A stretch of 36,436 bases of DNA from positions 1-36,436 of IMG/VR virus record IMGVR_UViG_3300032676_001258. One strand, 5' to 3'. The translations under genes were made by a program, and so were the position numbers. Each line of letters begins with the position of its first letter. Position 1 is the first letter of the stretch. Shown one piece after another: positions 15,990 to 36,436 of this stretch. This stretch comes from a virus. The notes under the pieces are model-generated. The model was not told the DNA's origin, made no database searches, and saw nothing but the letters and a program-made list of their open reading frames with translations.

Positions 15990-18900
15990 ATGGCATCGAA
16001 TACATCCCTTCTTGATACTAATTTGAATACAAGTCCTTATTTTGATGACTATGATCCAACAAAACAATATTATAAAGTATTGTTTAAGCCTGGTACGGCA
16101 GTTCAAGTAAGAGAATTAAATCAGCTTCAATCAATTTTACAGAACCAAATAACCTCGTTCGGTCAAAATATATTCAAAGAAGGTTCGGTAATTAAAGGTT
16201 GTACTTTCACGTTTGATAACAATTACAACTACGTCAAATTGAATGATACGTATGCGAATGGTACTTCTTTAACGGTTTCGGATTTGGTTGGATATAGCGT
16301 CACAAATCCCAACGGGTTGACTGCTACAGTTATTAACTCTTTACCAGGATTGTATTCTAATAATCCTGATCTAAACACATTATATATTAAATATTTGAAC
16401 ACAGGAACTTACAGTAACGGCGCTCCTCAAACGCAATTCGCAAATAGCGAACTTCTAACTTTTATTTCTTCTGCTAATTTAGTTGTTGCAACTGTAGTGT
16501 CAGCAAACGTTGCTAATGTATCAGGAAAAGGTTACGCGTTTACTACAACTGAAGGTATTATTTTTAAAAAGGGGTATTTCATTTATGTTGATCCTCAAAC
16601 CGCTGTAATCGACAAATACTCAAATCAGCCCGATGGTATTTCTGTTGGATTCGAGGCTACTGAAGAATTAATAACTGCAAGTAATGATACAAGCCTTTAT
16701 GATAACGCTGCTGGTGCCCCAAATTATTCTGCGCCGGGTGCTGATCGCCTTAAATTAATTCCTACACTTGTTACAATACCAACAAACACAGCGAATACTA
16801 CAACTTTCTTTTCTTTGGTTGATTTCAAACAAGGCGCGCCGATAACAATAAGACAGGATACCCAATTTAATTCTATCGCTATAGAAGAAGCACGTAGATC
16901 GTACGAAACTAATGGAAACTTCGTAGTTAATCCTTTTATTGTTTCATCACAAAGTTTGGCAAATACATCTGATCCGGATTACGCCACTCATTATAATGCT
17001 TTGGTTAGCGCAGGAATAGGCTACGTTAACGGTTACAGAGTTCAGTTTATTAATAGTAATGCATTCAAAGCGAGAAGAGGAACAGATTATGCCAACGTTT
17101 CTCAACAAAATGTTTCTTTGAATTTTGGTTATTATGTGTTATTAGACGAATTGTCTGGCGAATTCGGCGATTCAAATAAAATCATTCAAGTTCAATTACA
17201 CAGCGTTCCAAAAACTTCTGTAACTAATAGAACTTTCCTAGGTACCAGTTTTTCTCCAACAACGCAAATAGGAACAGCGTACATAAGAGGATTTTCTTAT
17301 AATAGCGGATCTCCAGGAGCAAATACAGCTCAGTATAGATTATATCTATTTGATATTTCGATGAATCCTGGTTCTAATTTTAATAATGTAAAAAGCGTAA
17401 TTTATTATGATAGTTCTTTAAAAGGCGTTGCCGATATTGTTCTAGATTATAATATTTCTTCTAATAATTATATCGCTTCTATCAAATCACCATATTTGAA
17501 TAGTATGATCTATCCATTTGGTCAAAATGCATTATCATCAAACGGATTTAATAATACAGAATTTGATTATAGAAAAATATCAAATACAAATTTTTCTAGT
17601 AGCGCAACTAATTCTATCGCGACTGTCGGGATAACAACTCCTCCTTCTGGTTCCGATAGTTTCCTTTATTTGGGAACTCTATCTTCTTCTCAAATGAATG
17701 ATTTTATTGTTGTTCCAACGTCAAACGGTTATTCAACTAATAAAACTGGAACGGTTACAGTTTCAAGCTCAAGTAACGTTGTTACAGGTTCCGGCACTTC
17801 GTTCTTAACAGATTATGCCGTTGGCGATTTTATTCTTACAAACACATCAGATGTTAGAACTATAACTTCAATATCTAATAATGTTTATTTGACTGTAGAT
17901 AATACTTTTTCTTCTAGCGTAGGAAGTTTGACTCACCAGAAAGCGTTTATTACAGGAAACCCAATACCATTTTCAACAAGACCAAATAGATCAATGAATA
18001 TTTCCGCAAATACGTTGACTATTTCTCTTGGCGAGGGTGCGAACGCAGCTTTTAACATTCAAGTAGCTTCTTCTATTGCTAGATCAGGCGCTACGTCGAT
18101 ACAAAAAATTATTAACAAAAACGTTTTTGTTAAAATCGATTGTTCTAACAACATCAACAAAAACGTAGGTCCATGGGAATTAGGTATACCTGATGTTTTC
18201 AATGTTGACGGTGTATATATTGATACGAGCGGGAATAAAACTTATACAAATACTTCAACAAATTACGCAAGTTATTTCAGTTTAGATAACGGCCAAAGAG
18301 ATGCTTACTATGACTTAGCAACTTTGAATGTTGTAACAAATTCTCCTGCAGACCGTATTAATGCAAATACAACGATTTTAGTTCAGTTGTCGGCGTTTAC
18401 TCATCAATCGGGTTCTGGATATTTTACTTGTAATTCTTATCCAATTGACGACGTAAATACATCAAACGTTAACGCGATAACAACTGCTGAAATACCAACT
18501 TATTCAAGTTCTGGTGGTTATTATTTCGATTTAAGAAATTGTATTGATTTTAGACCTGTTTCTTCAAACACTGCAAACGTGGCTACAAGCATAGCAACAG
18601 CGACTGTTAATCCTTCATCAACATTAAGTTTTAATGGAACTCCTATATTACCAGATCCTGATTCTATTTTTATTACAGACCTTGCGTATTATCTTTCAAG
18701 AACAGATAGACTAGCTATCGATACTTCTGGTAATATTGTTATCACCGAAGGATTGCCCGCTGTTGCAAATCCTCCAGCGCCGTCCGAACAAAATGGTACG
18801 ATGACTCTTTCATTGTTATCAATCCCGCCTTATCCTTCTTTGACAACCAACGAAGCCAAAGAGTACAACAGATATGATTTGGCTATTCAATCAGCGACAA

Positions 18901-19646
18901 GTCAAAATAGAAGATATACTATGAAGGACATTAAGTCCTTGGATACAAGAATTACAAATCTTGAATACTATACTTCATTATCTCTTCTAGAACAATCAGC
19001 GGCTGCATTACAAATAAAAACCACAACGACAGGTCAGACAAGATTTCAGAACGGTATCTTTGTTGATCCGTTCACTGGTTTTGATCTTTCTAATACACTA
19101 GATCCTAAGTATTATATGGCTATTGATCCAATGACAAACACATTAAGACCTGCGTTTGTCCAAATGCGTTCTGATTTTGCCTTTGATTCTTCATTAAGTT
19201 CTGGTGTTCAGCAACATGGTGAACTTATTATGTTGCCGCATACAAGCAATAATGTTTATATTAAACAACAATATGCTTCTAAGTATAGAAATTGTATTGA
19301 AGGTAACATTTATACTTGGATAGGAACAATAACTTTAACTCCTTCTGGTTCTATTTCGCCAGATACAACAACAAGTCCAAGCGTTGTTAATAATCTTGAT
19401 CTAGCACAAAACTGGCTTAATCTTCAAAATGCTTGGGGAACTCAGTGGGGTAATTGGCAAACACTTTCAACAACTTCATCAAATACATTGATTACAGCTT
19501 CTTCTACAGTAAGTCAGAGAATTGGTGATCCATTGACACCGCCTCCTTCATCTGATGATGGTGGTACACCACCTCCTGTATATCAATGGTCTGATAGTGG
19601 AGATGGTCTTGGTATAGTAGGAACTTCTCCTTATGGTGATAGTTAA
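15990..19646 (+). CDS. DUF4815 virion structural protein, baseplate/fibre attachment layer
   Basis: This 1218-residue protein opens with SLLDTNLNTSPYFDDYDPTK and YKVLFKPGTAVQVRELNQLQ, the start of DUF4815-type structural proteins found after gp8 in many distant T4-like phages. ADRLKLIPTLVTI near residue 252 and GYYFDLRNCIDFRPV near 848 are further family marks. A helical stretch near 970-1000 (RRYTMKDIKSLDTRITNLEY) probably forms a trimeric coiled coil. A beta module GTVTVSSSSNVVTGSGTSF with 'YAVGDFIL' lies near 590. The C-terminus is Pro/Ser/Gly-rich (DPLTPPPSSDDGGTPPPV) and stops just where the relatives I recall continue into the modules found here in the next two genes. It probably trimerises on the baseplate rim and carries fibres; no enzyme motif is seen. 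Confidence 0.75.
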   Translation: MASNTSLLDTNLNTSPYFDDYDPTKQYYKVLFKPGTAVQVRELNQLQSILQNQITSFGQNIFKEGSVIKGCTFTFDNNYNYVKLNDTYANGTSLTVSDLVGYSVTNPNGLTATVINSLPGLYSNNPDLNTLYIKYLNTGTYSNGAPQTQFANSELLTFISSANLVVATVVSANVANVSGKGYAFTTTEGIIFKKGYFIYVDPQTAVIDKYSNQPDGISVGFEATEELITASNDTSLYDNAAGAPNYSAPGADRLKLIPTLVTIPTNTANTTTFFSLVDFKQGAPITIRQDTQFNSIAIEEARRSYETNGNFVVNPFIVSSQSLANTSDPDYATHYNALVSAGIGYVNGYRVQFINSNAFKARRGTDYANVSQQNVSLNFGYYVLLDELSGEFGDSNKIIQVQLHSVPKTSVTNRTFLGTSFSPTTQIGTAYIRGFSYNSGSPGANTAQYRLYLFDISMNPGSNFNNVKSVIYYDSSLKGVADIVLDYNISSNNYIASIKSPYLNSMIYPFGQNALSSNGFNNTEFDYRKISNTNFSSSATNSIATVGITTPPSGSDSFLYLGTLSSSQMNDFIVVPTSNGYSTNKTGTVTVSSSSNVVTGSGTSFLTDYAVGDFILTNTSDVRTITSISNNVYLTVDNTFSSSVGSLTHQKAFITGNPIPFSTRPNRSMNISANTLTISLGEGANAAFNIQVASSIARSGATSIQKIINKNVFVKIDCSNNINKNVGPWELGIPDVFNVDGVYIDTSGNKTYTNTSTNYASYFSLDNGQRDAYYDLATLNVVTNSPADRINANTTILVQLSAFTHQSGSGYFTCNSYPIDDVNTSNVNAITTAEIPTYSSSGGYYFDLRNCIDFRPVSSNTANVATSIATATVNPSSTLSFNGTPILPDPDSIFITDLAYYLSRTDRLAIDTSGNIVITEGLPAVANPPAPSEQNGTMTLSLLSIPPYPSLTTNEAKEYNRYDLAIQSATSQNRRYTMKDIKSLDTRITNLEYYTSLSLLEQSAAALQIKTTTTGQTRFQNGIFVDPFTGFDLSNTLDPKYYMAIDPMTNTLRPAFVQMRSDFAFDSSLSSGVQQHGELIMLPHTSNNVYIKQQYASKYRNCIEGNIYTWIGTITLTPSGSISPDTTTSPSVVNNLDLAQNWLNLQNAWGTQWGNWQTLSTTSSNTLITASSTVSQRIGDPLTPPPSSDDGGTPPPVYQWSDSGDGLGIVGTSPYGDS

Positions 19647-19655
19647 AGATAGTAG

Positions 19656-19663
19656 AATAAATA
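19656..19663 (+). promoter_or_regulatory. late-promoter-like box before the 382-residue gene
   Basis: AATAAATA lies in the 38-base gap between the DUF4815 gene and the next gene, 21 bases before its ATG. A ribosome binding site AAAGG follows at 19672-19676. Confidence 0.45.
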
Positions 19664-19684
19664 ATCAATTTAAAGGTAAAATAA

Positions 19685-20833
19685 ATGGCAGGAACGCTAA
19701 ACACAACTACTACACAAACATTAGCGGTAACTTCTTCGGTCCAGCAACAAATAGGTACACAGTTAACAAATAGTGTATCAAATCAATTGTTGAATTTGGG
19801 AAATTTTGTTACTAATGTTAGTATATTACCATTCATACCTTCAGCAACAATCCAATTTAATGCGGTTGGTATGAAACCTAATACTCGTCTATATGCTTAT
19901 TTTAATAATGTTCCTGTTTCAGCTTGGTGTGCCCCAATATTGCCGGGGTATGACCCTTCCACTCTAGCTGGATCACAATTATGTACACCTTTTGGAACTC
20001 CTTTGTATAGTGATTCTAATGGTAATGTTTCTGGTATATTTCGTATTCCAGCTAATACATTTCAATCACAACAAATAACTTTTGAACTAAATGATATTTC
20101 TGATCTTTCACAAGGTTCTAGTGCCATAACAACACAAGCAGATGGTGTTTATTATGGTAGTACATTGTCTGTTGCTAGTGGGGCTAGTTTATTAAATACA
20201 AGACAAACTGTATTATCATCAACACAAGTTACACAACAACAAACAGTTCAAGGATTGGCAGTTGCAACAGCCGTAACACAGCAATACATTCCAGACCCAA
20301 CACCACCAACAAGTGGTGGCGGTGATAACTGTGGGTGTGGATCAATTATTTGTACAAAATTGTATGAACTTGGTTTGATGGACGAAGACACATATAAAGC
20401 AGATCAAGAATTTGGTGAATATTTAAGATCATATGATCCTGATACATATTGGGGATATATAAAATGGGCTTCAATAGTCGTTGACTGGATGTCTGGAAAT
20501 ACTCCAGATGTAATGTTCTGGATTAAAGATTTAGAAAAGCGTCGCGCCAAAGAATTGGAACTTACTCTTAAAATAACACACAGAATTGCCACTCCTTGGG
20601 CTCAACATATGCAATTTTTAATGGGTAAAAGAGAAAAAGACAACAAAGTTGGAAAATTAATTATGAATGTTGGTAAACCTATTAGTAAAATTATATATAA
20701 ATTGCCTTTCTTTAATAAAAAATCACCAAGCAAAGGAACAAAATATTTTATGCTTGGGTTATTTTTTGTTCTTTATTCGATAAGCAAAGTATTTGGTGAT
20801 AATTTTGGTTTTGAAAAATCAATAAATATTTAA
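19685..20833 (+). CDS. structural protein with Cys-rich domain and C-terminal hydrophobic segment
   Basis: Three parts can be seen in these 382 residues. Residues 45-85 carry ILPFIPSATIQFNAVGMKPN and TRLYAYFNNVPVSAWC, the 'GLKPNTR.YAFFDG' strand motif that in relatives I recall follows DUF4815 in the same chain. Residues 210-310 form a domain opening with C216, C218 and C223 and continuing KLYELGLMDEDTYKADQEFG, YDPDTYWGYIKWASIVVDWM and RIATPWAQHMQFLMG. I recall this arrangement from marine T4-like tail proteins, but its function is unknown. Residues 354-371 (YFMLGLFFVLYSISKVFG) are hydrophobic enough for a membrane or buried helix. The N-terminal QQIGTQL echoes QRIGDPL at the end of the previous gene, suggesting a split gene. 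CG dinucleotides look sparser here than in flanking genes. Confidence 0.65.
   Translation: MAGTLNTTTTQTLAVTSSVQQQIGTQLTNSVSNQLLNLGNFVTNVSILPFIPSATIQFNAVGMKPNTRLYAYFNNVPVSAWCAPILPGYDPSTLAGSQLCTPFGTPLYSDSNGNVSGIFRIPANTFQSQQITFELNDISDLSQGSSAITTQADGVYYGSTLSVASGASLLNTRQTVLSSTQVTQQQTVQGLAVATAVTQQYIPDPTPPTSGGGDNCGCGSIICTKLYELGLMDEDTYKADQEFGEYLRSYDPDTYWGYIKWASIVVDWMSGNTPDVMFWIKDLEKRRAKELELTLKITHRIATPWAQHMQFLMGKREKDNKVGKLIMNVGKPISKIIYKLPFFNKKSPSKGTKYFMLGLFFVLYSISKVFGDNFGFEKSINI
20821..20828 (+). promoter_or_regulatory. late-promoter-like box before the 823-residue gene
   Basis: AATAAATA overlaps the last codons of the preceding gene and lies 29 bases before the ATG at 20858, the same spacing as the boxes at 2492 and 12760. 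A strong ribosome binding site AGAGG follows at 20840-20844. Confidence 0.45.
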
Positions 20834-20857
20834 AATTAAAAGAGGTATAAGAAAAAT

Positions 20858-23329
20858 ATGAATCCAATTGGTCAAACATTTTACGTTAGTGAACCTTCAA
20901 CCGGAGTTCCCGGTGTTTATATAACTCAAATTGACGTTTTCTTTCAGTCTGTAAGCCCTACTTATGGAATTGAATTACAATTAAGAACAACTTTAAATGG
21001 CGTTCCAACACAAGAACGTTTGCCTTTTGCTAGTATAATTTTACTTCCAACAGATGTAAATCCTCCTGTTGCGTCTTCTGATGCTTCGGTTGCAACTTCG
21101 TTTGTTTTTGATACTCCTGTTTTTGTTCAGTCTGGTCTATCATATGCTATTGTCTTATTACCTCTTGGTGGTAATCCGGACTATAATATATGGACTGCTG
21201 AAATTGGCGGCACTGATTCTGTTACAAATTCACCAATTTATACAAATAACGATACCGGTGATTTGTTTCTTTCATCAAATGATAAAGATTGGACTCCAAT
21301 AATTACCGAAGATATGAAATTTACAATATATATTGCTAATTTTACTTCTCTTTCGGGAACAGCTGTTTTTAGAACACCCGATGAAGATTATGCAGAATTA
21401 TATAATATAAACGGTTCTTTTGCCCTTGGAGAACCTCTTTATCCAACGAATACAGCGATGAATATAGCTGTTCTTAATGTAACAGGCGTTTTAGGTTCGT
21501 TCAATAACGGAGATCAAGTTTATCAATCAAACGGTTCGTCAAATACTGCTACAGGCGTTGTGTACAGCGCAAATTCTTCTGTTATTAAACTTTCCAACAC
21601 CACTGGCGGGTTTTCAAGCACATATTATACGACGTTATATAATTCTGCTTCAGTTTCTAATGCAGTAGTTACAGTGGTTTCACAAAACGCATCAATAACC
21701 ACTTCTTCAAACACTTTCTCGGTTCCAGATAGTTCTGTATTTTCTAATGGAGATTTTATCTATATTTCTACGAACACAGGATCTAAAACTAGATTATTTA
21801 AAGTTTCGGGTATACCAAATTCAACAACCGTTGCTTTTTCTAATGTGTTTGTTTCAAGTCTTGCTACTTCCGATTTTACAGACACGAATTGTATTTACGG
21901 TAAAGTATTATACAACGGTACTTTACACGGTGGATTGGGATCTTTGAAAGTTTTCCCAGATTTCACAAGAATAATTCTTGATAACGTTTCAAGTACAACA
22001 TCTAATAATTTTAATGCTGCGATAGGTAATAAAATTGTGGGTATTTTCTCCGGAGCCAGTGCAACAGTTCATAATGTAATTAATGTCCCATATAATCAAA
22101 TATCTCCAAATATCACAAATATATCCCCGGCAAATACCGGTATTTCTTGGCAATTTACTGGCGTTCAAAACAATCCTTCATTTACTCCCGACGCTTTTGG
22201 TATTAATATTAATGAAGGTCTTTCGAATGAACAATATGACTTTGAAAGAGTTGTTCTTTCAAGAAGTAATGAATTGTCCGCAATGCCTGTTGGAAGAACT
22301 GGTGAAAGAACTGTTAAGATATCAGCATCTTTCAATTCTTCGAATAATAAAATCAGTCCTGTTATTGACACATTAAGTAAAGTTTCTAACTTCTCATTGA
22401 ACCTTTGTAGCCCAAGTTACGATTTACAAGGTTATTATTTGAATGTGTCTAATTCTACTGGAACATTTGCTAATGGTAATATTGTAACACAAAATGGTGC
22501 AGTTGCTACAGTTAGATTTGCGAATAGTTCATTTATCAGAATAACTGATGTAACTCAAGGTTCATATTTTCAAGCTAATTCGACACCATTGATTGATACA
22601 ATTAGCGGCGCAAACGCTGTTATTACGACAGCTGAATTTTATAGTGAATTACATAATAACGGATTATTTTCCGCTTCGCGTTATATTTCTAAAACAGTTT
22701 CGCTTGCTCAAACTTCAGAAGATATTGTTGTTTACATTGGCGCTTGGAGACCAGCGCCGTCAAATATAAGAATGTACGTAAGAGCTAAAAACAATCAAGA
22801 TTCAAGAGATTTTAATAATGTAGTTTATTCTAGATTAACTGAAACTTCGTCGCCAAGTTTAATAAGTAGTTCAGGAAATCCTAATGATTTGGTAGAATTG
22901 ACATATGGATTCCCACAAAGTATTAATTTATATACAAACGGAGTTGTTTGTAACACTTCTTCTAATGTAGTTAATTTATTCACAACTTCCGGATTGACTT
23001 CAGGTCAGATAGTTTACCTTTCGGATTCAGCGCAATCTAAGTTTAACGTGAGAGTTATTTCTTCAATTGTCAACAGCAGCGCAATTACACTGACAAATAA
23101 CACTTCATTCAATTCAACTAATTCCGCTTTCGGCACTATTCCTAGCTTACAATCTGTTAGTGGTATTTTCTTAAACGATCAAAACAATAATATTGCTAGA
23201 TACGTAACGATTGATGATTTAGTATTTGATGGTTTTGATCAATTCTCTGTTAAAATCGTACCCGTTTCAAATACAACCGCTCTTGTTCCTCATGTTACGG
23301 ACCTAAGAGTAATAGCGATGCAAGTGTAA
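20858..23329 (+). CDS. virion structural protein with fibre-type beta repeats
   Basis: Residues 1-165 form a recognisable module that opens NPIGQTFYVSEPSTGVPGVY, continues with ITQIDVFFQSVSP and ELQLRTTLNGVPTQERLPFA, and includes YAIVLLPLGGNPDYNIWTAE and EDMKFTIYIANF. From memory, in related phages this module lies inside the same giant protein as DUF4815, so it probably binds alongside that protein. Residues 180-340 hold beta repeats of the kind seen in gp7 and gp8 (NGSFALGEPLYPT, LGSFNNGDQVYQSNGSSNTA, VIKLSNTTGGF). Similar repeats recur near 525-600. Near residue 410 onward is another structured region (VPYNQISPNITNISP, LSRSNELSAMPVGRTGERTV). The C-terminus (IDDLVFDGFDQFSVKIVP, TDLRVIAMQV) is compact. 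Total length is 823 residues. No catalytic motif is seen. Confidence 0.65.
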   Translation: MNPIGQTFYVSEPSTGVPGVYITQIDVFFQSVSPTYGIELQLRTTLNGVPTQERLPFASIILLPTDVNPPVASSDASVATSFVFDTPVFVQSGLSYAIVLLPLGGNPDYNIWTAEIGGTDSVTNSPIYTNNDTGDLFLSSNDKDWTPIITEDMKFTIYIANFTSLSGTAVFRTPDEDYAELYNINGSFALGEPLYPTNTAMNIAVLNVTGVLGSFNNGDQVYQSNGSSNTATGVVYSANSSVIKLSNTTGGFSSTYYTTLYNSASVSNAVVTVVSQNASITTSSNTFSVPDSSVFSNGDFIYISTNTGSKTRLFKVSGIPNSTTVAFSNVFVSSLATSDFTDTNCIYGKVLYNGTLHGGLGSLKVFPDFTRIILDNVSSTTSNNFNAAIGNKIVGIFSGASATVHNVINVPYNQISPNITNISPANTGISWQFTGVQNNPSFTPDAFGININEGLSNEQYDFERVVLSRSNELSAMPVGRTGERTVKISASFNSSNNKISPVIDTLSKVSNFSLNLCSPSYDLQGYYLNVSNSTGTFANGNIVTQNGAVATVRFANSSFIRITDVTQGSYFQANSTPLIDTISGANAVITTAEFYSELHNNGLFSASRYISKTVSLAQTSEDIVVYIGAWRPAPSNIRMYVRAKNNQDSRDFNNVVYSRLTETSSPSLISSSGNPNDLVELTYGFPQSINLYTNGVVCNTSSNVVNLFTTSGLTSGQIVYLSDSAQSKFNVRVISSIVNSSAITLTNNTSFNSTNSAFGTIPSLQSVSGIFLNDQNNNIARYVTIDDLVFDGFDQFSVKIVPVSNTTALVPHVTDLRVIAMQV

Positions 23330-26692: not shown

Positions 26693-29125
26693 ATGGCTAA
26701 TAATGTAATGCAAATTCTAAGAAGCCCAACAACAGCAACACCAGCTTCGTTGTTGCCGGGGCAATTAGCTTATTCTAATGCGGTAGGTGGTACTGGTGTA
26801 CTTTATATTGGTTCTACCGATGGTGCAACAGTTGTTCCAATTGGTGGTGTTAGAAATCCAGGAACTCTTACTGCCAACCAATCGCTCGTAGCTAACTCTA
26901 CTTCTGGCATCAATTCGATTCAGACTGGAAATCTTGTTCTTGTTGGTACTTCTGGTACCATCAATGCGAATGGATCAACAGGTACTGCTGGTTACGTTCT
27001 ATTTTCAGGTGGTACCACCAACGCTTACTGGGCTTCTACTGGATCACTAACTACAAACGTCGCCGCTCAGTATGCATGGACTAATACTCAGTCATTTTCG
27101 AACACAATAACATTTAATGGTCAGGTAAATTTTGCCAACGCTATAAGCGCAAATGGCGCCGTTGGAACTTCGGGTTACGTTCTTGTTTCCGGCGGTACGG
27201 GATCTAACGCCTATTGGGCTGCTCCCGGTTCAATGTCTATTAATACTGCATCCCAATTTACTTGGTCAAATACTCAAACATTCCAAAACACAATTACTTT
27301 CAGTACACAGATACTGGCTAACGCGATTAATGCGACTTCTTATACCGCTGGCGTTTTTGGTTCTGCAACTAGCGGATTTTTAGCTAATTCTACAGAAATT
27401 GCTGTTGGTAACTCGACAGTAAACGGTACAATAACATCTAATTCAACAGTAACATATTTTACCGGCACAGCTTATACAGCAAATAACGCAACGAATCTTG
27501 GTGGTACCGCTGCGGCTTCTTATCAGTTAAATAGCACTTTAGGCGCAAATATTGCTTCTTACCTACCGACTTATGCAGGTACAGTTAATGCTGCAGTTAT
27601 AACTGATGGTAGTTACGGAACCGCATCAAATGGATTCGTAATCAACTCAACCGCAATGGCTTGGGGTAACTCATCAGCCAACGTATACATCGGATGGGAT
27701 TCGACAGGACAAGATCTATTATCGATCGGCGGAAACATTAATAACTACGTAGAAGCGGCTATCTGGAATAGTAACGCCGGAACTTCTGCTTCTGCTGACT
27801 TCTCTATTAATGATAATCTTGGGCTTTACTCAAACAACTTCATTGATATTGGTATTAATGGTTCTAATTGGTCAAATTCTCAGTGGACAATCAACGGTCC
27901 ATCTGACGCTTACATTTATACAGGTAATACAAATCTAGCGGTTGGTACGGGCGGTAACCAAGGTAATATAGTATTCTTCACGGCTGGAACTCTCGCTGGA
28001 AATGAAAGAATGCGTATTACAACTTCTGGTAATGTTGGTATTGGTAACACCAATCCAACTGATAAGTTATCGGTTAACGGCTCAACGACTCTTGGTGGAA
28101 CTGTAGTTACAGGAAATACAACCGTAACCGGTTTTGTAAACGCAACTTCTTCAGTAAACGCCTCTTCTCTTACAGTTGGTACTGGGTTTATTGCCAACAC
28201 TACTGGCGTGTATGCTGGTGTTGTAAATGGTTCAACAATTTCCGTTGGTACTGCCTTTACTGCTAACTCGACTCTCGTAAATGCGGCTGCAATAAACGTA
28301 GTAAATCAGGTTAACACTGCTACTCTGTTTGCAACTACTTCTGCGAACATAGCTTCTGCAGTTCTTGCAAACTCAAGCGGTCTTTATACCACTGGTACTG
28401 TTAACGCCGTGTCACACACAGTAGGAACTAACTTCGTAGCGAACTCTTCTGCCATAACTTTGACCGGCACTTATGCTATCAATGGTTCAACTACAGATCT
28501 TTCGGTAAGAAATGCTACCTTCTCTGGAAACGTTGTTGTATCAGGTAGCGTTGTAACGGTAAACAGCGCCACACTTCAGGTTAACGATAACGTTATAGAA
28601 GTTGGTTTTAATAATGGTTCCCTATCAACAGATGCAATAGACGCAGGTATTTACACTCCGTCGAATACTTCCGGAACTCTACAGTATTCTGGTATCGCTC
28701 GTATCGCTGCATCTTCTACCAATGGTAATCCATGGTATAAGATTTTTAACACTACTGCAAATCCAAATAGCGGTCTAACTATCACTAGTTCGACGACTGG
28801 TATACTTCAAGCTTATCTGTATCCATACGGAACTGGCGGTGCTTTTGTTGCTAACTCTACAGCTGTTAATATTACCGCAAATGGTACAGTTTCTTCGGCT
28901 ATAGTTGCTAACAGCTTGACTTTGAGCACTGCATTGGCAGCTACGTACGGTGGTACTGGATTACTTGGTTCTTCTTATGCTGCTGGTGATTTGCTTTACG
29001 CAGCTATTTCATCTCCTTCAGCTTTAAGTAGATTATCAGTACCCGGTTCAGCGGCCAATGGTCAAGTGTTACAGATTACTAACAACTTACCAGCTTACGG
29101 AACTCTTGACGGCGGAATTTTCTAA
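26693..29125 (+). CDS. long tail fibre protein with N-terminal attachment domain
   Basis: The N-terminus ANNVMQILRSPTTATPASLL with LPGQLAYSN and GVLYIGSTDG near residues 30-45 matches the virion-anchor opening of many T4-like marine fibres (a variant occurs again in the gene at 29399). The shaft contains linker motifs GTAGYVLFSGGTTNAYWAS and GTSGYVLVSGGTGSNAYWAA. Further on is a DSTGQDLLSIGGNINN region near residues 340-400, then GNVGIGNTNPTDKLSVNGST near 446, a motif that often precedes fibre tips. The C-terminal part has LQVNDNVIEVGFNNG and STDAIDAGIYTPSNT, likely a globular region, and ends TLDGGIF. Total length is 810 residues. No S74 chaperone or C1q domain is present, so the tip type is unknown. 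Confidence 0.72.
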   Translation: MANNVMQILRSPTTATPASLLPGQLAYSNAVGGTGVLYIGSTDGATVVPIGGVRNPGTLTANQSLVANSTSGINSIQTGNLVLVGTSGTINANGSTGTAGYVLFSGGTTNAYWASTGSLTTNVAAQYAWTNTQSFSNTITFNGQVNFANAISANGAVGTSGYVLVSGGTGSNAYWAAPGSMSINTASQFTWSNTQTFQNTITFSTQILANAINATSYTAGVFGSATSGFLANSTEIAVGNSTVNGTITSNSTVTYFTGTAYTANNATNLGGTAAASYQLNSTLGANIASYLPTYAGTVNAAVITDGSYGTASNGFVINSTAMAWGNSSANVYIGWDSTGQDLLSIGGNINNYVEAAIWNSNAGTSASADFSINDNLGLYSNNFIDIGINGSNWSNSQWTINGPSDAYIYTGNTNLAVGTGGNQGNIVFFTAGTLAGNERMRITTSGNVGIGNTNPTDKLSVNGSTTLGGTVVTGNTTVTGFVNATSSVNASSLTVGTGFIANTTGVYAGVVNGSTISVGTAFTANSTLVNAAAINVVNQVNTATLFATTSANIASAVLANSSGLYTTGTVNAVSHTVGTNFVANSSAITLTGTYAINGSTTDLSVRNATFSGNVVVSGSVVTVNSATLQVNDNVIEVGFNNGSLSTDAIDAGIYTPSNTSGTLQYSGIARIAASSTNGNPWYKIFNTTANPNSGLTITSSTTGILQAYLYPYGTGGAFVANSTAVNITANGTVSSAIVANSLTLSTALAATYGGTGLLGSSYAAGDLLYAAISSPSALSRLSVPGSAANGQVLQITNNLPAYGTLDGGIF

Positions 29126-29398: not shown

Positions 29399-30766
29399 TT
29401 GGCCAATAATATTTTTCAGGTAAAGCGCACCAGCACTTCTGGAAGAACGCCTAACACTACCAGTTCGTCTAATAGTCAATACATCAACGCCGGTGAATTT
29501 GCTCTGAATATGACCGATCAGATTCTTTATACATCTGACGGAACGAATCTTATTACAGTTGGCGCTAATACAGTTAATCATAACGTGACTGGCAATTTAA
29601 CTGTAAAAGCGATTGTAGCAAATAATTCGCTAGGTACAGCTAACCAAGTATTAACATCAAACGGATCTACAGTTTATTGGTCAACAGTTTCTGGTGGCGG
29701 AGGTGGTAGCGCATTACCTGCTCGTCAAATCTATACAGCCAATGGTTCGGTAAACACATTCACTGTAACTGGTGGTTACTACGCCAATAATCTTGACGTA
29801 TATCTCAATGGCGTTAAGCTTGTTAATGGTACAGATGTTAATACAGCAAGTGGTTCTACTTTTACAATCCTTGGATCTAATCCTCCCAATAATGCTGTTA
29901 TCGAAGTTGTTGGTACATCAGCATTAACAACTACTGGCGTAAGTACAGTCGTAAATCAACAAATTACTGCTAATGGTTCGGCAAACTCTTTTGCTATCAC
30001 TGGTGGTTATATTCCAAATGGTATTCAGGTTTATCTTAATGGCGTTAAACAAATACCTGGAACAAACGTGTTTATAACTTCTGGAGCTAACGTTGGATTC
30101 GCTGTTACACCTTCTAACAACTATATTATCGATGTTTATGGTTATCAAACGGCTGTTTCTTATGTTTCTAATACTGTCGTTGTCGGCAATACAACTATTG
30201 GTTTAAATAGTATTACCACAAATGCAATTAGCGCCAATGGTTCCGTTGGTTCTAATGGACAGGTATTAACATCTAATGGTTCTGCAGTTTATTGGGGCGC
30301 TGGTAATGGACCTGCATTTAGTTGTTATCCAAATGCACAACAAACCATATCAAATTCAACATTTACACTTGTCGCAAACCAAGTAAAAGAATACGACACA
30401 AACACTTGTTATAATAATACAGGTTCAACAGTAACACTTAATGGCTTATCTGTTCCAGCCTATGCTTTTTGCCCTAATGTCGCTGGATATTATATGTTTA
30501 CTGGCGCAATTCAATATGGAGCTAGTATTACAGATATTCTTGTGCAGCTTTCGAAAAATGGCGGAGCATATCAAAAAAGAGGTTCATTGATTACTGGAAC
30601 ATCGGCTGGCACAAGCGTAGCTGCTATGTTTTATTTAAATGGAACTGGTGATTATGTTCAACTTTATACATATCAAGGAAGTGGATCTTCTCAAAATACT
30701 GATGGGATATCTGGCGATTGGCCAATCGTGCAGTATTTTCAAGGTTGCATGATGAGAGGTGCTTAA
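29399..30766 (+). CDS. tail fibre protein with C1q/TNF-like tip, TTG start
   Basis: The 455-residue protein opens with an attachment domain (ANNIFQVKRTS, INAGEFALNMTDQILYTSDG). It then carries the linker GTANQVLTSNGSTVYWSTVS near 81-100 and a poly-Gly hinge. Next are two copies of a beta domain (near 115-175 and 180-240) marked by ANGSVNTFTVTGGYYANNLD / ANGSANSFAITGGYIPNGIQ and VYLNGVK. Residues 304-455 resemble a C1q/TNF-like jelly roll: PAFSCYPNAQQTISNSTFTL, KEYDTNTCYN, VAGYYMFTGAIQYG, FYLNGTGDYVQLYTYQG and the final YFQGCMMRGA. Such tips trimerise and bind surface receptors. An XkdW-like gene follows by one base, and a similar pair lies at 31203-32859. Confidence 0.75.
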   Translation: MANNIFQVKRTSTSGRTPNTTSSSNSQYINAGEFALNMTDQILYTSDGTNLITVGANTVNHNVTGNLTVKAIVANNSLGTANQVLTSNGSTVYWSTVSGGGGGSALPARQIYTANGSVNTFTVTGGYYANNLDVYLNGVKLVNGTDVNTASGSTFTILGSNPPNNAVIEVVGTSALTTTGVSTVVNQQITANGSANSFAITGGYIPNGIQVYLNGVKQIPGTNVFITSGANVGFAVTPSNNYIIDVYGYQTAVSYVSNTVVVGNTTIGLNSITTNAISANGSVGSNGQVLTSNGSAVYWGAGNGPAFSCYPNAQQTISNSTFTLVANQVKEYDTNTCYNNTGSTVTLNGLSVPAYAFCPNVAGYYMFTGAIQYGASITDILVQLSKNGGAYQKRGSLITGTSAGTSVAAMFYLNGTGDYVQLYTYQGSGSSQNTDGISGDWPIVQYFQGCMMRGA

Positions 30767-30767
30767 T

Positions 30768-30941
30768 ATGTCTCTTTATGAAAAAATAATCAAACTTTAT
30801 CCAACATTAACAATGGCAGATTTTGCTTTTGGTACGGGAACCATTGTTTTACAAAACGATGGTGAGGGTGATTATATAAAATCTTGGAATCATCCTACTC
30901 TTGCTCAACCCACGGAACAACAACTTGCATCAGTACAATAA
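30768..30941 (+). CDS. XkdW-like small protein, putative fibre assembly partner
   Basis: The 57 residues (SLYEKIIKLYPTLTMADFAF, IVLQNDGEGDYIKSWNHPTL, AQPTEQQLASVQ) resemble the XkdW family of short phage proteins that lie next to tail fibres, with 'LY..I...YP', 'L.NDG.GDYI..W' and 'P...P(T)..QL'. The ATG 30768 follows the fibre stop by one base; an earlier in-frame ATG at 30759 overlaps the fibre gene and is unlikely. A paralogue lies at 32677. It may act as a chaperone or adaptor for the upstream C1q-tipped fibre, but this is inferred from linkage only. Confidence 0.7.
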   Translation: MSLYEKIIKLYPTLTMADFAFGTGTIVLQNDGEGDYIKSWNHPTLAQPTEQQLASVQ

Positions 30942-30952
30942 AGGCATAACAA

Positions 30953-31174
30953 ATGACAATAACTAATGATCTTGCTGTTCTTGCTGGTGGTGCTGGTAGT
31001 GGTGTAACATACCGTAATCGTCTCATCGATGGCGGATTTCAAGTTTGGCAACGCGGTACTTCTTTTGCAATGGCAAATGTTGCCAGTGCAGACATTTATA
31101 CAGCCGATCGTTGGATAGGCGAAGCGAGCGGAGGCGGCGGTAACCAAACTGGCAGCACTGTAACATTTGCGTAG
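30953..31174 (+). pseudogene. truncated fibre/adhesin fragment
   Basis: The 73-residue frame has a good ribosome binding site (AAAGG) and ATG. It carries YRNRLIDGGFQVWQRGTSFA and then YTADRWIGEA, the start of a domain found in many phage tail fibres ('N.LINGGFDIWQRGTS....YTADRW'). In intact proteins that domain continues for well over 100 residues; here it ends at TAG after a Gly-rich stretch, and nothing resembling the rest follows in any frame before the next promoter. It therefore looks like a decayed or deleted fibre gene left between two fibre units. A functional short product cannot be excluded. Confidence 0.6.
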
Positions 31175-31202: not shown

Positions 31203-32675
31203 ATGACACAGGCATATCAATTAGGCGATCTTGGACAACTACTGACAGTTGATGCTGTCGGTAACAATATCACATTGGCTGCCAATAGTGTTGTTGTTGG
31301 TAATGCTTCTGTTAATGCTACTATTAACTCGACTGCTTTTACAGGTACAGCTAACAATACATCTTTCGTAGGAACTGTATCTGCAGCTAACGTAGTTTCG
31401 AATGCGCAGTTGACTGCCAACTTAGCAAACTACCAAACCACAGCAGGATTATCTGCTAACGTTGCGACATTATCTTCAAATAATGCATCATATCTTGGTG
31501 GAGTAGCAGCCGCATCATATGTTAATACTTCTGGTGCTTACACAAGAACTGGTGTCACAACATTCAGCGCAAATCTTATAATTTCAACAACTGCTGGTAT
31601 TTCTGCTAACGGATCTTTTGGCACAGCCAACCAAGTTCTTACTTCTAATGGTAGCACTGTTTATTGGTCGACAGTTTCTGGTGGTGGCGGTGGTTCAGTA
31701 AACGTTGCTGCTCAGTACACATGGACAAACACACAAACATTTACGAATACAATTACATTTAGTAGCACTATTAACGGTACGGCTAATAATACTTCTTATG
31801 TTGGCTCTGTCACCGCTGCTAATGTTGTTTCCAACGCACAATTACAATCTAATTTAAGCAATTATCAAACTACCGCTGGGTTATCAGCCAACGTAGCAAC
31901 ATTAGCTGCAAATTCATCTACTTATGCAAATCAGTCAATAACAAATACATTTACTGTTGGTACTGCTGCATATCACGTATCTAATGGTAATATGGGTATT
32001 GGTACATCAACGCCAGCGTATAAATTAGACGTTAACGGGTCAGGTAGAATCCAAGGATTGTTTTTTAGCGCGAGTGGCGATCAATATCTATATGATTCTG
32101 GTGGCGGTTCAGCAACTATACGTGCTGGTACAGGTGGAACAGATGTTTATTATGCATTTTATGCAAATGGACAATTTGCTGCTTTGGGCGGCGGTGGTTA
32201 TTTTAATGGCAACTTAAATGTATCAGGTAATATATCTATAGCTGGAAACCAAGCAGTTAATGGACCTTCTTTTTCTGCTTATCAATCTTCATCACAATCT
32301 ATTTCAAGTGGCGTATCAACAAAAGTTCAACTACAATCAAAAGAATGGGATACCAATTCTTGTTTTGATGCAACTACGAATTATAGATTTACCCCAACCG
32401 TTGCTGGTTATTATCAAATTAGTGCGGGTATTAATTTCACGACGTTAGCAACTTCAATCACTTTTGCTTCTATATTTAAAAATGGTGTGGAATATAAAAG
32501 ACTTACTCAAACATATTCATCTGTTTATGGTATAGAAGGTTCAGCGATTGTCTATCTAAATGGTACTACAGATTATGTTGAGCTTTATTGTTTTCAATAT
32601 AATGGTTCATCAATCAGTTTGTCTACCGGTGTCAATTTAACATATTTCCAAGGCGCGATGGTCAGGGGGGCATAA
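31203..32675 (+). CDS. tail fibre protein with C1q/TNF-like tip
   Basis: This 490-residue protein opens AYQLGDLGQLLTVDAVGNNI, a fibre N-terminus that differs from the ANNIFQV type. The shaft holds ANVVSNAQLTANLANYQTTA and SYLGGVAAASY modules, which are shared with the gene at 32901. It also has GTANQVLTSNGSTVYWSTVS near residue 140 and GNMGIGTSTPAYKLDVNGSG near 262. The last motif usually leads into an S74-chaperone fibre tip, but here residues 354-490 form a C1q/TNF-like domain (PSFSAYQSSSQSISSG, KEWDTNSCFD, VAGYYQISAGINF, VYLNGTTDYVELYCFQYNGS, YFQGAMVRGA). That is a mosaic of two fibre types. An XkdW-like gene follows by one base. Confidence 0.75.
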   Translation: MTQAYQLGDLGQLLTVDAVGNNITLAANSVVVGNASVNATINSTAFTGTANNTSFVGTVSAANVVSNAQLTANLANYQTTAGLSANVATLSSNNASYLGGVAAASYVNTSGAYTRTGVTTFSANLIISTTAGISANGSFGTANQVLTSNGSTVYWSTVSGGGGGSVNVAAQYTWTNTQTFTNTITFSSTINGTANNTSYVGSVTAANVVSNAQLQSNLSNYQTTAGLSANVATLAANSSTYANQSITNTFTVGTAAYHVSNGNMGIGTSTPAYKLDVNGSGRIQGLFFSASGDQYLYDSGGGSATIRAGTGGTDVYYAFYANGQFAALGGGGYFNGNLNVSGNISIAGNQAVNGPSFSAYQSSSQSISSGVSTKVQLQSKEWDTNSCFDATTNYRFTPTVAGYYQISAGINFTTLATSITFASIFKNGVEYKRLTQTYSSVYGIEGSAIVYLNGTTDYVELYCFQYNGSSISLSTGVNLTYFQGAMVRGA

Positions 32676-32676
32676 A

Positions 32677-32859
32677 ATGACTTTGTATGATAAGATAATG
32701 AAAATTTATCCACAACTAACTTCCGGAGATTTTTATCCGAATACGGGAACAATATCTTTGCGAAATGATGCAGATGAAAGAGGCGATTATATCGAAAAAT
32801 GGGAGAATCAAACGTATCCTAAACCAACCGACGAACAACTTGCCGCTATAACAGAATAA
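32677..32859 (+). CDS. XkdW-like small protein, paralogue
   Basis: The 60 residues (TLYDKIMKIYPQLTSGDFYP, ISLRNDADERGDYIEKWENQ, TYPKPTDEQLAAITE) are clearly related to the gene at 30768, with the same 'LY.KI...YP.L', 'L.ND...GDYI..W' and 'PT..QLA' marks. It follows the second C1q-tipped fibre by one base. The repeated pairing of a fibre with its own small gene implies specific function, perhaps in fibre folding or attachment; this is inference. A TATAAATA box follows directly. Confidence 0.72.
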   Translation: MTLYDKIMKIYPQLTSGDFYPNTGTISLRNDADERGDYIEKWENQTYPKPTDEQLAAITE

Positions 32860-32900: not shown

Positions 32901-34853
32901 ATGACAGATACAGTATTCGTAGCTAAAAATGGTATTGTGGCAAATACATCGTTTGCCGCTAATTCCACAGGAATTTATTTTAATAACATAAATTCTACAT
33001 CTAACGGTATTTTTGCTAACGGATCTGTAATTTCTGTTGGTAATTCTTCCGTTAATGTTTCTGTTAATTCTACAAATTTTACGGGAACTTCTAACAACTC
33101 ATCTTATCTAGGCGGAACCATAGCTTCCAGTTATCAAACTACCGCCGGATTATCTTCAAACGTTGCAACATTATCTGCCAATAACTCTACGTATCTTAAT
33201 GGCCAACCATCGTCTTATTATCAAACAAATGGTGGTTTGGCTGCTAATGTTGCTACTCTAACGTCTAACAACACTTCTTACGTTGGTTCTGTATCTGCTG
33301 CGAACGTAGTTTCTAATAATCAACTACAATCAAATCTTTCTAATTATCAAACAAACGCTGGATTAGCAGCAAACGTTGCAACACTAACTGCAAATAACTC
33401 TACATATTTCAACGGTCAATCCGTTTCATATTATCAAACGACCGCTGGATTAGCAGCAAACGTATTGTCATTAACTTCTAACAACACTTCTTACGTTGGT
33501 TCTGTATCTGCTGCGAACGTAGTTTCTAATAATCAACTACAATCAAATCTTTCTAATTATCAAACTTTGGCTGGACTTTCTTCAAACGTCGCTATTCTTT
33601 CTTCAAATAATTCTACATATTTCAATGGTCAACCAGCTTCGTATTATCAAACAAACGGCGGTTTGGTTTCTAATGTTGCTTTATTAACTGCAAATAACTC
33701 TAATTATCTAGGCGGTATCAGTTATTCTTCTTATGTAAACACAAGTCAATTAAGCGCAAATTTGAATAATTATCAAACGACCGCTGGATTGGCTTCAAAT
33801 GTAGCTACGTTAACATCTAATAACACTTCTTATGTTGGCTCTGTATCCTCCGCTAATGTTGTATCTAATACTCAATTACAAGCAAATTTAAACAACTACG
33901 CTGCTTTATCTGGCGCCACATTCACTGGCGACGTATATATTTACCGTTCGGTCGCGCCGACGACTGGTGTTTTATTTTTAAATAATAGTGGAACTAGATA
34001 TATTTATTATGATGGAAGTAATTACCAATTAAATGGAACCAATTTATATGTCAATGGTAGTTTAGCTCTTACTACTTCAAATTATAATAGTTATGCTCCT
34101 ACGTTAACTGGTACAGGCGCTTCAGGTACTTGGTCGATTAATATATCTGGTGGATCAAATTCTTCTGTATACGCAAATCAATCCGTTACTAATACGTTTA
34201 CTATCGGCACTGCCGCTTATCACGTATCTAATGGTAATATGGGTATCGGCACGAGTTCTCCGGCCTATTTGTTAGATGTTAGTGGAAGTGCTCGTTTTAC
34301 CGGTTCTGTGATATTAAACACAACCTCTGGAATATATGCTAATGGTGGTTACGGCGTCGCGGGACAAACTTTAACTTCTAATGGTTCTTCAGTATATTGG
34401 TCGAATGGCATAAGTAGCACGAGCAATATACAAGTAAATTCTCTTGGTGTCGGAACAGCCGCTTCAGGAACTACTGGTGAAATCAGAGCGACTAATCAGA
34501 TAACAGCTTATTATTCTGATAAGAGATTGAAGACTGACATTGTTCCTATAAGCAATCCCATCGATAAGATAATGAGTATATCCGGTGTAACTTACAGAAG
34601 CAACGAAATCGCAGCTAGTTACGGTTATACGGATGACAGCGAACAGGTTGGAGTTATCGCCCAAGAAATTGAAGCCGTGTTGCCACAAATCATTAGACCG
34701 GCGCCATTCGACACCGACTATGTTGATGGAAAACTTGTTTCTAGATCTGGTGAAAACTATAAGACGGTTCAGTATGAAAAAATCATACCTTTATTAATTG
34801 AAGCGATCAAAGATCAACAGAGACAAATTGAAGAATTGAAAAATAGAGGTTAG
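32901..34853 (+). CDS. tail fibre/spike with endosialidase-type intramolecular chaperone (Peptidase_S74)
   Basis: This 650-residue protein is mostly a repeated shaft: units such as NNSTYFNGQPASYYQTNGG, NTSYVGSVSAANVVSNNQLQ and SNLSNYQT recur over residues 60-340. GNMGIGTSSPAYLLDVSGSA follows near 446. The C-terminal 112 residues are a clear Peptidase_S74 chaperone: YYSDKRLKTDIVPIS, then QVGVIAQEIEAVLP, TVQYEKIIPLLIEAIKDQQR and a terminal coiled coil. In this family the chaperone drives trimer folding and then cuts itself off just before the serine of SD(K/E)RLK, here Ser539, with the following lysine helping. The mature fibre would thus be about 538 residues. The region between about 350 and 445 (FTGDVYIYRSVAPTTGVLFL) is more varied and may hold the receptor-binding part. 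Confidence 0.85.
   Translation: MTDTVFVAKNGIVANTSFAANSTGIYFNNINSTSNGIFANGSVISVGNSSVNVSVNSTNFTGTSNNSSYLGGTIASSYQTTAGLSSNVATLSANNSTYLNGQPSSYYQTNGGLAANVATLTSNNTSYVGSVSAANVVSNNQLQSNLSNYQTNAGLAANVATLTANNSTYFNGQSVSYYQTTAGLAANVLSLTSNNTSYVGSVSAANVVSNNQLQSNLSNYQTLAGLSSNVAILSSNNSTYFNGQPASYYQTNGGLVSNVALLTANNSNYLGGISYSSYVNTSQLSANLNNYQTTAGLASNVATLTSNNTSYVGSVSSANVVSNTQLQANLNNYAALSGATFTGDVYIYRSVAPTTGVLFLNNSGTRYIYYDGSNYQLNGTNLYVNGSLALTTSNYNSYAPTLTGTGASGTWSINISGGSNSSVYANQSVTNTFTIGTAAYHVSNGNMGIGTSSPAYLLDVSGSARFTGSVILNTTSGIYANGGYGVAGQTLTSNGSSVYWSNGISSTSNIQVNSLGVGTAASGTTGEIRATNQITAYYSDKRLKTDIVPISNPIDKIMSISGVTYRSNEIAASYGYTDDSEQVGVIAQEIEAVLPQIIRPAPFDTDYVDGKLVSRSGENYKTVQYEKIIPLLIEAIKDQQRQIEELKNRG
33264..33352 (+). 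repeat. 89-bp perfect direct repeat, copy 1
   Basis: These 89 bases recur without change at 33477-33565, with a period of 213 bases (71 codons). They encode SNNTSYVGSVSAANVVSNNQ and following residues of the fibre shaft. Divergent copies occur near 33816 in the same gene and near 31780 in the upstream fibre gene. Confidence 0.93.
33477..33565 (+). repeat. 89-bp perfect direct repeat, copy 2
   Basis: Identical to 33264-33352 by base-by-base reading. Recombination between the copies would delete or add exactly 71 residues in frame. Confidence 0.93.
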
Positions 34854-34855
34854 TA

Positions 34856-35395
34856 ATGTCAACAATTTTGAATAGTTCTGGAATAGTTTTCCCTGATAGT
34901 ACGACACAAACCACTGGTTCTTCACAACTTACTAGAATAAGCAGTAACATACCAGTTTTTAATATGCAATATAGTGGAAGCGATTACGCTATTAGTAACG
35001 CGACTCAGACAAAAATGATTTTGAATAAAAACAATTTTGATAGTCATGGTGGTGTGGACACAACAAATTATCAATACACTATTCCTATAAATGGATATTA
35101 TAGAATCAATTACGGCGCTTCATTACATGGTTATTACTATATCGTATCTTCTATATACGGCATGACATATTATGATATGAATTTAAGAGTTAACGGAACT
35201 AATGTAGAAGATGATGGTGTATATTACATGAATTCAGGAAATTATGGTATGGGATTTATAGGTCAATCTGCTTCTATATTATTATATTTGAATTCTGGTC
35301 AAATTTTGACTCTTTACGCGCAAGGAAATGTGTTTACTTTGGGTTCGGGCATCGCGGTTCAAAGTTCTTTTTTATCTGGTCATTTAGTTAATTAA
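34856..35395 (+). CDS. small fibre-tip protein, FPDSTTQ motif plus C1q/TNF-like domain
   Basis: The 179 residues start with STILNSSGIVFPDSTTQTTG, a motif common in phage fibre proteins that may serve as a docking strand. The rest resembles a single C1q/TNF-like jelly roll: ISSNIPVFNMQYSGSDYAIS, NKNNFDSHGG, NYQYTIPINGYYRINYGASL, SILLYLNSGQILTLYAQGN and a last strand VQSSFLSGHLVN. It starts 2 bases after the S74 fibre stop. It is the first of three tandem relatives (35405, 35945). With no shaft of its own it probably decorates the virion or attaches to another fibre; this is inference. Confidence 0.65.
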   Translation: MSTILNSSGIVFPDSTTQTTGSSQLTRISSNIPVFNMQYSGSDYAISNATQTKMILNKNNFDSHGGVDTTNYQYTIPINGYYRINYGASLHGYYYIVSSIYGMTYYDMNLRVNGTNVEDDGVYYMNSGNYGMGFIGQSASILLYLNSGQILTLYAQGNVFTLGSGIAVQSSFLSGHLVN

Positions 35396-35404
35396 GGTTA
35401 ATAT

Positions 35405-35935
35405 ATGTCAACTATTTTAACAAACACAGGAGTAACATTTCCAGACGGATCAACACAAGCTTCTTCCGGATACACTCCACATGTTGTTTGTAGAGCATAT
35501 ATTACAACGAATCCAACTATTACAACTTATCCTGGTAGTTGGGTGTTAGTTCCAATTAATGCTGGGTCTTATGATAATTCAAGTTCTTTCGACGCAACAA
35601 ATCATGTGTTTACAGTTCCTCAATCTGGTTACTACTGTGTTTCTTATTTGGTTGGTGTTAACGCAGTAACAAGTGGTGTTTATATTTTTGGTTCAGCGAT
35701 AGGAGTCAATGGAACACCTGTTTTTTCAGAAAATTATTTTCAACCTTATTCTTTTGCCCCACAATCTTATCGCACAAGAGGAACTTCGATTCTTCATTTT
35801 AATTCCGGTGATAAGATAGGTGTATATGTAATGGGTTACGGAAATGTTTCGTATTCTGGTTGTTGTTGTTGTGTAACAAATTATAATTTTCAAATAGCCG
35901 CCGCAATTTTAGATATTCACCAAGTACGTTTTTAG
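35405..35935 (+). CDS. small fibre-tip protein with CCCC loop
   Basis: This is the second tandem C1q/TNF-like protein (176 residues). It opens STILTNTGVTFPDGSTQASS and contains FDATNHVFTVPQSGYYCVSY near residues 62-81, then SILHFNSGDKIGVYVMGYGN near 128-147. Four consecutive cysteines at residues 153-156 (SGCCCCVTNYNF) sit in what should be the loop before the final strand, at the exposed end of the jelly roll; two more lie at 29 and 78. The four codons form a TGT run. No signal peptide is present. Starts 9 bases after the previous stop with AAGG as ribosome binding site. Confidence 0.65.
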   Translation: MSTILTNTGVTFPDGSTQASSGYTPHVVCRAYITTNPTITTYPGSWVLVPINAGSYDNSSSFDATNHVFTVPQSGYYCVSYLVGVNAVTSGVYIFGSAIGVNGTPVFSENYFQPYSFAPQSYRTRGTSILHFNSGDKIGVYVMGYGNVSYSGCCCCVTNYNFQIAAAILDIHQVRF

Positions 35936-35944
35936 GATTTAATT

Positions 35945-36436
35945 ATGTCAACGTCAATTAACAATTCAGGTATAACGTTTCCAGATAGTACTACTCAAAC
36001 CAGTGCGGCTATATTGAATAGTAATATACCTGTATTATCTGTATATTACACGTCATCAACGTCGATTTCTTCTGGAACTTATACGACTATTCCTTTCAAT
36101 ACGGTTTTTGAAGATACTCATTCAGGTTGGAATTCCGGTGGAAATTATTATACAATTCCTATAACCGGATATTATCAAATAAACGCAGCAACTGGGGTTT
36201 ATTATAGTTATTTGATGGCCGCTCTCACTAGATTAATGACAAGTAGCGGACAATCTTATCAAGGCGGTCAGATGAATGGATATACATATGGCGGTGGTAA
36301 TATTCCTGCAGGATATAATTTTAGAGGAAATGTAGACACCGTTTTTTATCTGACCTCAGGAACCACTGTATATGTTCAGGCGTTGGGTGTATCTTATAAT
36401 AGCGCGGCGGTAACTAATTACGGTAATAGTTTACAA
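35945..36436 (+). CDS. small fibre-tip protein, third tandem copy (cut by window end)
   Basis: The open frame runs from ATG 35945, 9 bases after the previous stop and preceded by AGGA, to the window edge without a stop (164 codons). It opens STSINNSGITFPDSTTQTSA and continues LNSNIPVLSVYYTSSTSISS, YYTIPITGYYQINAATGVYY and TVFYLTSGTTVYVQALGVSY, the same layout as the two genes before it. The N-terminal motif matches the 34856 gene more closely than the 35405 gene. The missing C-terminus would be about 10-20 residues if its length equals that of its relatives. Confidence 0.65.
   Translation, partial: MSTSINNSGITFPDSTTQTSAAILNSNIPVLSVYYTSSTSISSGTYTTIPFNTVFEDTHSGWNSGGNYYTIPITGYYQINAATGVYYSYLMAALTRLMTSSGQSYQGGQMNGYTYGGGNIPAGYNFRGNVDTVFYLTSGTTVYVQALGVSYNSAAVTNYGNSLQ

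Follow-up and report, generated by a model that had tools for sequence, protein, structure and literature searches.

Three tandem C1q-like head genes with a common FPD segment behind an S74 tail fiber gene of a T4-like phage

Genes for C1q-domain receptor-binding proteins have been reported beside tail fiber genes in the metaviromic islands of marine phages by Mizuno et al. in 2014 (PMC3909814); the head encoded by these island genes is hypervariable, the N-terminal part is less variable, and XkdW is also among the island genes (PMC3909814). A separately encoded adhesin of another kind is gp38 of phage S16 and T2-like phages, a fast-changing tip protein with a conserved N-terminus, tryptophan prongs that dock it, and a polyglycine domain; autocleavage of the S74-type chaperone of S16 gp37 exposes the surface on which gp38 docks (PMC7917993). 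The simplified tail fiber gp24 of the myocyanophage Pam3 has a head consisting of a TNF-like and a glycine-rich part, is docked to the baseplate by helices, and is encoded by a single gene accompanied by a Tfa-type chaperone (PMC9608196). In the T5-like phages DT57C and DT571/2, LtfA and LtfB are receptor-binding proteins from neighboring genes that are joined via an N-terminal segment into a branched fiber, each with a predicted autocleaved chaperone (PMC4728585).

The locus described here was found in IMG/VR viral record IMGVR_UViG_3300032676_001258, the 36,436 bases of which are referred to below as the window. Its three head genes are made as separate proteins, as their reading frames show, and very probably encode hypervariable receptor-binding heads of the known kind, judging from fold, neighborhood, and variability. 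Heads of this C1q-like kind are, by profile matches, common in viral contigs. Less ordinary are the triple array with an FPD segment behind an S74 fiber gene and the split between a gene that ends a shaft and a gene that starts a head; no description of such a split was found in a limited search of the literature.

Organization of the fiber region and fold of the heads

The window contains a T4-type tail module (tube, baseplate hub and wedge, head closure), and a related terminase has its best matches among named phages in the Sinorhizobium phages phiM12 and phiN3 (~55% identity), followed by cyanophages. At the 3′ end are, in order, an 810-aa fiber, two fibers with fused heads, each accompanied by an XkdW-like gene, the S74 fiber, and the three head genes (Table 1). 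The S74 fiber gene ends 2 nt before head gene 1, successive head ORFs are spaced by 9 nt, and gene 3 is cut by the end of the window. The initial annotation had described three successive genes, each encoding a ~20-aa GI(V/T)FPD(S/G)(S/T)TQ segment and one head; this is borne out by ORFs of 179, 176, and 170 aa and by motif matches beyond chance, since the window contains exactly 3 matches to a degenerate DNA pattern of it, versus 0.00 expected from 100 dinucleotide shuffles. Its suggestion that the array continues past the window was not upheld: longer contigs from this phage, among them IMGVR 3300032677_000023, have three genes only, followed by genes for an XkdW-like protein (110 aa), a cupin-like protein (94 aa), and a 246-aa protein that occupies the place of the phiM12 neck protein. 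A search of the 69-kb contig returned the three head genes and the fused 490-aa fiber, and nothing more. All three head genes recur in unchanged order in the sister contig L008.

Table 1. Features of the fiber region, with positions in the window
Feature	Position	Strand	Basis
Single-chain fiber, 455 aa, fused C1q-like head at 30305-30763	29399..30766	+	C1q-like profile match 3e-47
XkdW-like gene behind 455-aa fiber; possible fiber assembly protein	30759..30941	+	XkdW E=6e-8
Single-chain fiber, 490 aa, fused C1q-like head at 32259-32672	31203..32675	+	head homologous to genes 1 and 3; BclA_C E=5e-6
XkdW-like gene behind 490-aa fiber; possible fiber assembly protein	32677..32859	+	XkdW E=8e-6; PHROG tail fiber assembly E=1e-4
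Fiber with C-terminal S74 chaperone; proposed carrier of heads	32901..34853	+	Peptidase_S74 E=4e-14; tail-fiber PHROGs
S74 chaperone domain; autocleavage predicted between ITAYY and SDKRLK	34515..34850	+	S74 stretch from residue 539; site read from sequence
Head gene 1, 179 aa: FPD segment (residues 1-20) and C1q-fold head from ~residue 33	34856..35395	+	ORF; C1q-like profile match; AlphaFold2 model; Foldseek to C1q heads
FPD motif of gene 1, GIVFPDSTTQ	34880..34909	+	pattern match, 0 expected
Head gene 2, 176 aa: FPD segment and C1q/TNF-like head	35405..35935	+	ORF; BclA_C E=1.2e-8, just under curated cut-off; C1q-like profile match
FPD motif of gene 2, GVTFPDGSTQ	35429..35458	+	pattern match, 0 expected
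Head gene 3, 164 aa in window, 170 aa complete in L004: FPD segment and C1q-fold head	35945..36436	+	ORF; C1q-like profile match; AlphaFold2 model; Foldseek
FPD motif of gene 3, GITFPDSTTQ	35969..35998	+	pattern match, 0 expected

Several other features of these contigs were observed. The 810-aa fiber (window 26693-29125) is without a recognized C-terminal domain, ends in GTLDGGIF, and could be another headless shaft. A 73-aa ORF (window 30953-31174; RNRLIDGGFQVWQRGTSF...YTADRWI) resembles a common phage tail domain cut short after its start and is possibly the remnant of a lost or exchanged head. Farther upstream (window 15990-23329), consecutive ORFs of 1218, 382, and 823 aa match successive parts of the large family phrog_358; the corresponding place in phiM12 is taken by one 5.4-kb gene. 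The gene for the terminase large subunit is interrupted in L004 (14006-16654), with three ORFs of which the middle one is HNH-like, and is an uninterrupted 543-aa gene in L008; GIY-YIG-like ORFs are also placed differently in these two contigs.

The C1q/TNF fold that the initial annotation had assigned to the heads is backed by a profile search, AlphaFold2 models, and Foldseek for genes 1 and 3, and by sequence only for gene 2. Searched against solved structures, a profile of 52 sequences (heads and phage relatives) matched C1q domains with a best E of 5.9e-6, including collagen X NC1 and C1q-related factor. Single-chain modeling of heads 1 and 3 with AlphaFold2 gave mean pLDDT values of 79.6 and 80.6, respectively; most head blocks exceed 80, some loops fall below this, and residues 1-20 are at 45-58. 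For both models the best Foldseek matches are C1q heads, with C1QTNF5, C1QL proteins, and the short tail fiber of cyanophage A-1(L) also found, and a Foldseek search of BFVD gave C1q-domain proteins of Synechococcus and uncultured phages. No window head matched Pfam C1q (PF00386) above the curated cut-off, BclA_C was matched by gene 2 only and below its cut-off, and the heads gave no match to a Gly-rich domain. Named phages gave no tblastn match to head 1, to head 2, or to the motif by itself at the limits used, and no relative came from a scan of bacterial and archaeal genomes. Viral contigs contain at least 566 C1q-like stretches, and among the matches listed the head begins no more than 70 residues from the ORF start in about 60 of 90 distinct ORFs.

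Divergence of the heads against fixed N-termini

That the heads diverge while the N-terminus is kept, as initially proposed, was confirmed both between paralogs and between orthologs. Within the array, the paralogs have 11-15 of their first 20 residues in common (55-75%) versus 27-35% identity over the aligned head. Between the window lineage and the sister phage represented by L008, heads 1, 2, and 3 are 85, 73, and 63% identical, while the 22-aa N-termini are 100% and the flanking proteins 98-99% identical. The initial statement that the first 20 residues are kept is to be corrected accordingly: identity is complete for orthologs, over 22 residues, and 55-75% for paralogs. At the DNA level, divergence from L008 is limited to the head-coding blocks, and in gene 1 to its second half, such that the heads look replaced or reshaped in place.

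With the motif removed, heads 1 and 3 and heads 1 and 2 are still homologous, and genes 2 and 3 have no significant match to each other; the gene 3 head also matches the C-terminus of the fused 490-aa fiber in the window. About half of the residues common to the paralogous N-termini are encoded by different codons, making selection on the protein a simpler reading than a motif recently duplicated or spread by gene conversion, which is unlikely.

A diversity-generating retroelement was considered because the six codons that differ between gene 1 and the near-identical contig L007 (window 34973-35242) are all amino-acid changing, with four involving AAT; these six differences are too few to separate selection from targeted mutagenesis. 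No reverse transcriptase was found in the three contigs of the lineage and the sister, all incomplete, and no further copy able to serve as a template was found in the 69-kb contig, likewise incomplete. Substitutions involving A make up a share of 0.55-0.64 in the heads, near the 0.49-0.57 of the flanks.

FPD segments and shaft ends in other phages

The initial annotation had treated the motif as belonging to the array. A scan of viral contigs, which gave 80 stretches with the FPD motif, identifies it instead as a general phage module carried by unrelated heads. Two arrangements were observed: the motif either stands at the very start of short proteins whose heads are unrelated, as seen in dozens of phages, or lies inside long fibers before a C-terminal domain, where it comes after a shaft strand (e.g., GNLTLPGGITFPDGTTQ in L050). 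Among 33 N-terminal examples, 11 match Gly_rich_2, one matches collagen, one matches BclA_C, and the rest are without a Pfam match. L024 also has FPD genes in tandem, a pair with collar-like heads.

Across the motif-scan loci, 11 of 25 FPD-start genes have an S74 fiber or a shaft end as their immediate upstream neighbor, compared with 1 of 516 other genes (p 2e-15), a count that takes in two contigs of the window's own lineage. An S74 fiber is followed directly by an FPD-type head gene in L036, L061, and L091, and in the cultured Methylophilales phage MEP401 the S74 fiber gp54 overlaps gp53, which consists of MSVAINGTNGITFNDGSLQ and a head. In L262, an S74 mini-fiber overlaps a single C1q head gene with the N-terminus AVTFPDGTIQNTA, and no T4-like neighbors occur within the stretch examined. 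Several FPD-start genes, such as those in L018, L020, L076, and L079, have no recognized fiber gene directly upstream.

Thirteen ORFs from the motif-scan loci and L012 contain a common shaft-end sequence and stop 14-24 residues later, with an FPD-start gene next where the contig extends far enough. In two pattern scans, dozens of contigs had this sequence at the ORF end, no fusion to the FPD motif was found, and the few internal matches were unrelated sequences. The headless ends are similar to the residues just before the S74 cut: L152 has GNLTTLNNVTAYGSI-stop as its headless end and GNLTMLANVTAY^SDERLK in its S74 fiber. The standard shaft terminus KYG.T.IAS.DSSGN.T...GTP-stop recurs in many viral contigs (loci L108-L220 and L312-L425), and the genes behind it have at least four N-terminal types (FPD, ISL, QTNGTT, and SGTTTLQA).

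In the first set of contigs, ISL-type N-termini follow Y- or F-type shaft ends and mostly FPD-type N-termini follow the others (28/0 versus 2/15, p 4e-10), with the rule having been derived from these same data. In contigs from the second pattern, ISL-type N-termini follow 17 of 21 Y/F ends versus 5 of 66 other ends (p 2e-10); here the rule was fixed beforehand, and the patterns used for typing were broadened following an initial inspection. Since ends other than Y/F precede at least three N-terminal types, the matching between shaft end and plug is partial; moreover, contigs that are related do not count as independent cases. A strict one-to-one match, which the first set had suggested, failed in the second scan.

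Attachment of the heads and comparison with known systems

As a tentative explanation, to which we give a little less than an even chance, the products of the three genes are receptor-binding heads of C1q fold, made separately and plugged by their FPD segments onto a fiber tip, with the S74 fiber as the likeliest carrier. Each head, a C1q/TNF jelly roll by profile and model, would presumably trimerize, and its FPD segment would act as a plug that caps the fiber shaft. Docking by this segment is suggested by the frequent position of FPD-start genes directly behind S74 fibers or headless shafts and by the way the segment follows the shaft strand in single-chain fibers. The S74 fiber 2 nt upstream is taken as the likeliest carrier by analogy with the autocleavage in the S16 gp37-gp38 pair; from its membership in the S74 family and the site itself, its chaperone is predicted to cut itself off after ITAYY, leaving the tip exposed. 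The heads would then be exchangeable adhesins that diversify fast while plug and shaft stay fixed, like gp38 on gp37 in Salmonella phage S16. Counting against the S74 fiber as carrier, its predicted tip ends in TAYY and is therefore Y-type, and Y-type headless ends precede ISL-type rather than FPD-type N-termini. Also against this explanation are the low model confidence for the FPD segment, the several FPD-start genes without a fiber neighbor, and the occurrence of the segment inside long fibers, where it cannot be a plug between proteins.

The main rival explanation, in our view unlikely but worth serious consideration, is that each head protein is a complete short fiber whose N-terminus is an adaptor to the baseplate or another tail protein rather than to a neighboring fiber tip. 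Such an arrangement has a precedent in Pam3 gp24, a short TNF-like trimeric fiber docked to the baseplate via its N-terminus (PMC9608196), and is consistent with the FPD-start genes that lack a fiber neighbor and with the abundance of short C1q proteins carrying several other N-terminal modules (about 60 of 90 distinct ORFs among the matches listed). Against it stand the enrichment of FPD-start genes directly behind S74 fibers and headless shafts, and the segment continuing the shaft strand in single-chain fibers. The latter proteins, in which the segment stands before many kinds of C-terminal domain, would also agree with a function as a trimerization neck only, that is, a short strand registering three chains before the head, with attachment by other means. 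We regard this as improbable, as the short FPD proteins keep nothing else able to attach them to the virion, given that their heads differ completely between phages.

Exactly three paralogs, which the sister phage also keeps side by side and in this order, might alternatively represent the A, B, and C chains of one heterotrimeric head, as in complement C1q. The single FPD-type C1q head behind an S74 fiber in L262, the fused heads on single-chain fibers in the window, and the very different rates at which the three heads diverge make this very improbable. Hardly to be expected at all is that the products are not incorporated into virions, being accessory or decaying genes: three intact frames are kept in the sister phage inside a tail fiber operon, and C1q genes of this kind are regarded as encoding receptor-binding proteins (PMC3909814).

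The tag that the array shares with unrelated phages, often just after shaft genes, suggests that some phages make fiber tips as separate, exchangeable parts. A broader proposal, which is possible but on balance doubtful, is a split-fiber system widespread among environmental phages, in many of which the shaft gene ends at a standard terminus, or S74 autocleavage exposes a similar one, and the gene that follows encodes the head together with a short N-terminal plug from a small repertoire (FPD, ISL, and others); unrelated folds could then be swapped on a common tip, with partial matching of terminus and plug. Should the heads indeed be separate pieces fitting one common tip, the host range of many uncultured phages could shift by the swapping of one small gene. 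Plug and shaft-end sequences would also make it possible to find receptor-binding heads by sequence alone, including those without a recognizable domain, and the three-head array would represent a natural set of alternative or complementary heads in one phage.

Compared with described systems, the window resembles the LtfA/LtfB arrangement in having neighboring receptor-binding genes with an N-terminal segment, joining on one fiber being only proposed for the window heads; LtfA and LtfB are both long fibers with their own chaperone, whereas the window adhesins are head-only. Pam3 gp24 is likewise a short fiber that combines a TNF-like domain with docking through its N-terminal part, such docking being putative for the window heads; in contrast, gp24 docks to the baseplate by helices, has a glycine-rich addition, and comes from a single gene with a Tfa-type chaperone. 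As with gp38, head gene 1 lies directly behind a fiber with an S74-type chaperone, and the heads are separate and fast-changing with a conserved N-terminus. However, none of the three has a tryptophan in its first 30 residues, and they are C1q-fold rather than polyglycine proteins, encoded by three genes. Like the C1q genes of metaviromic islands, the window heads are located beside tail fiber genes and are far more variable than their N-termini and flanks, but here three of them stand in tandem, with a common FPD N-terminus, behind an S74 fiber in a T4-like phage.
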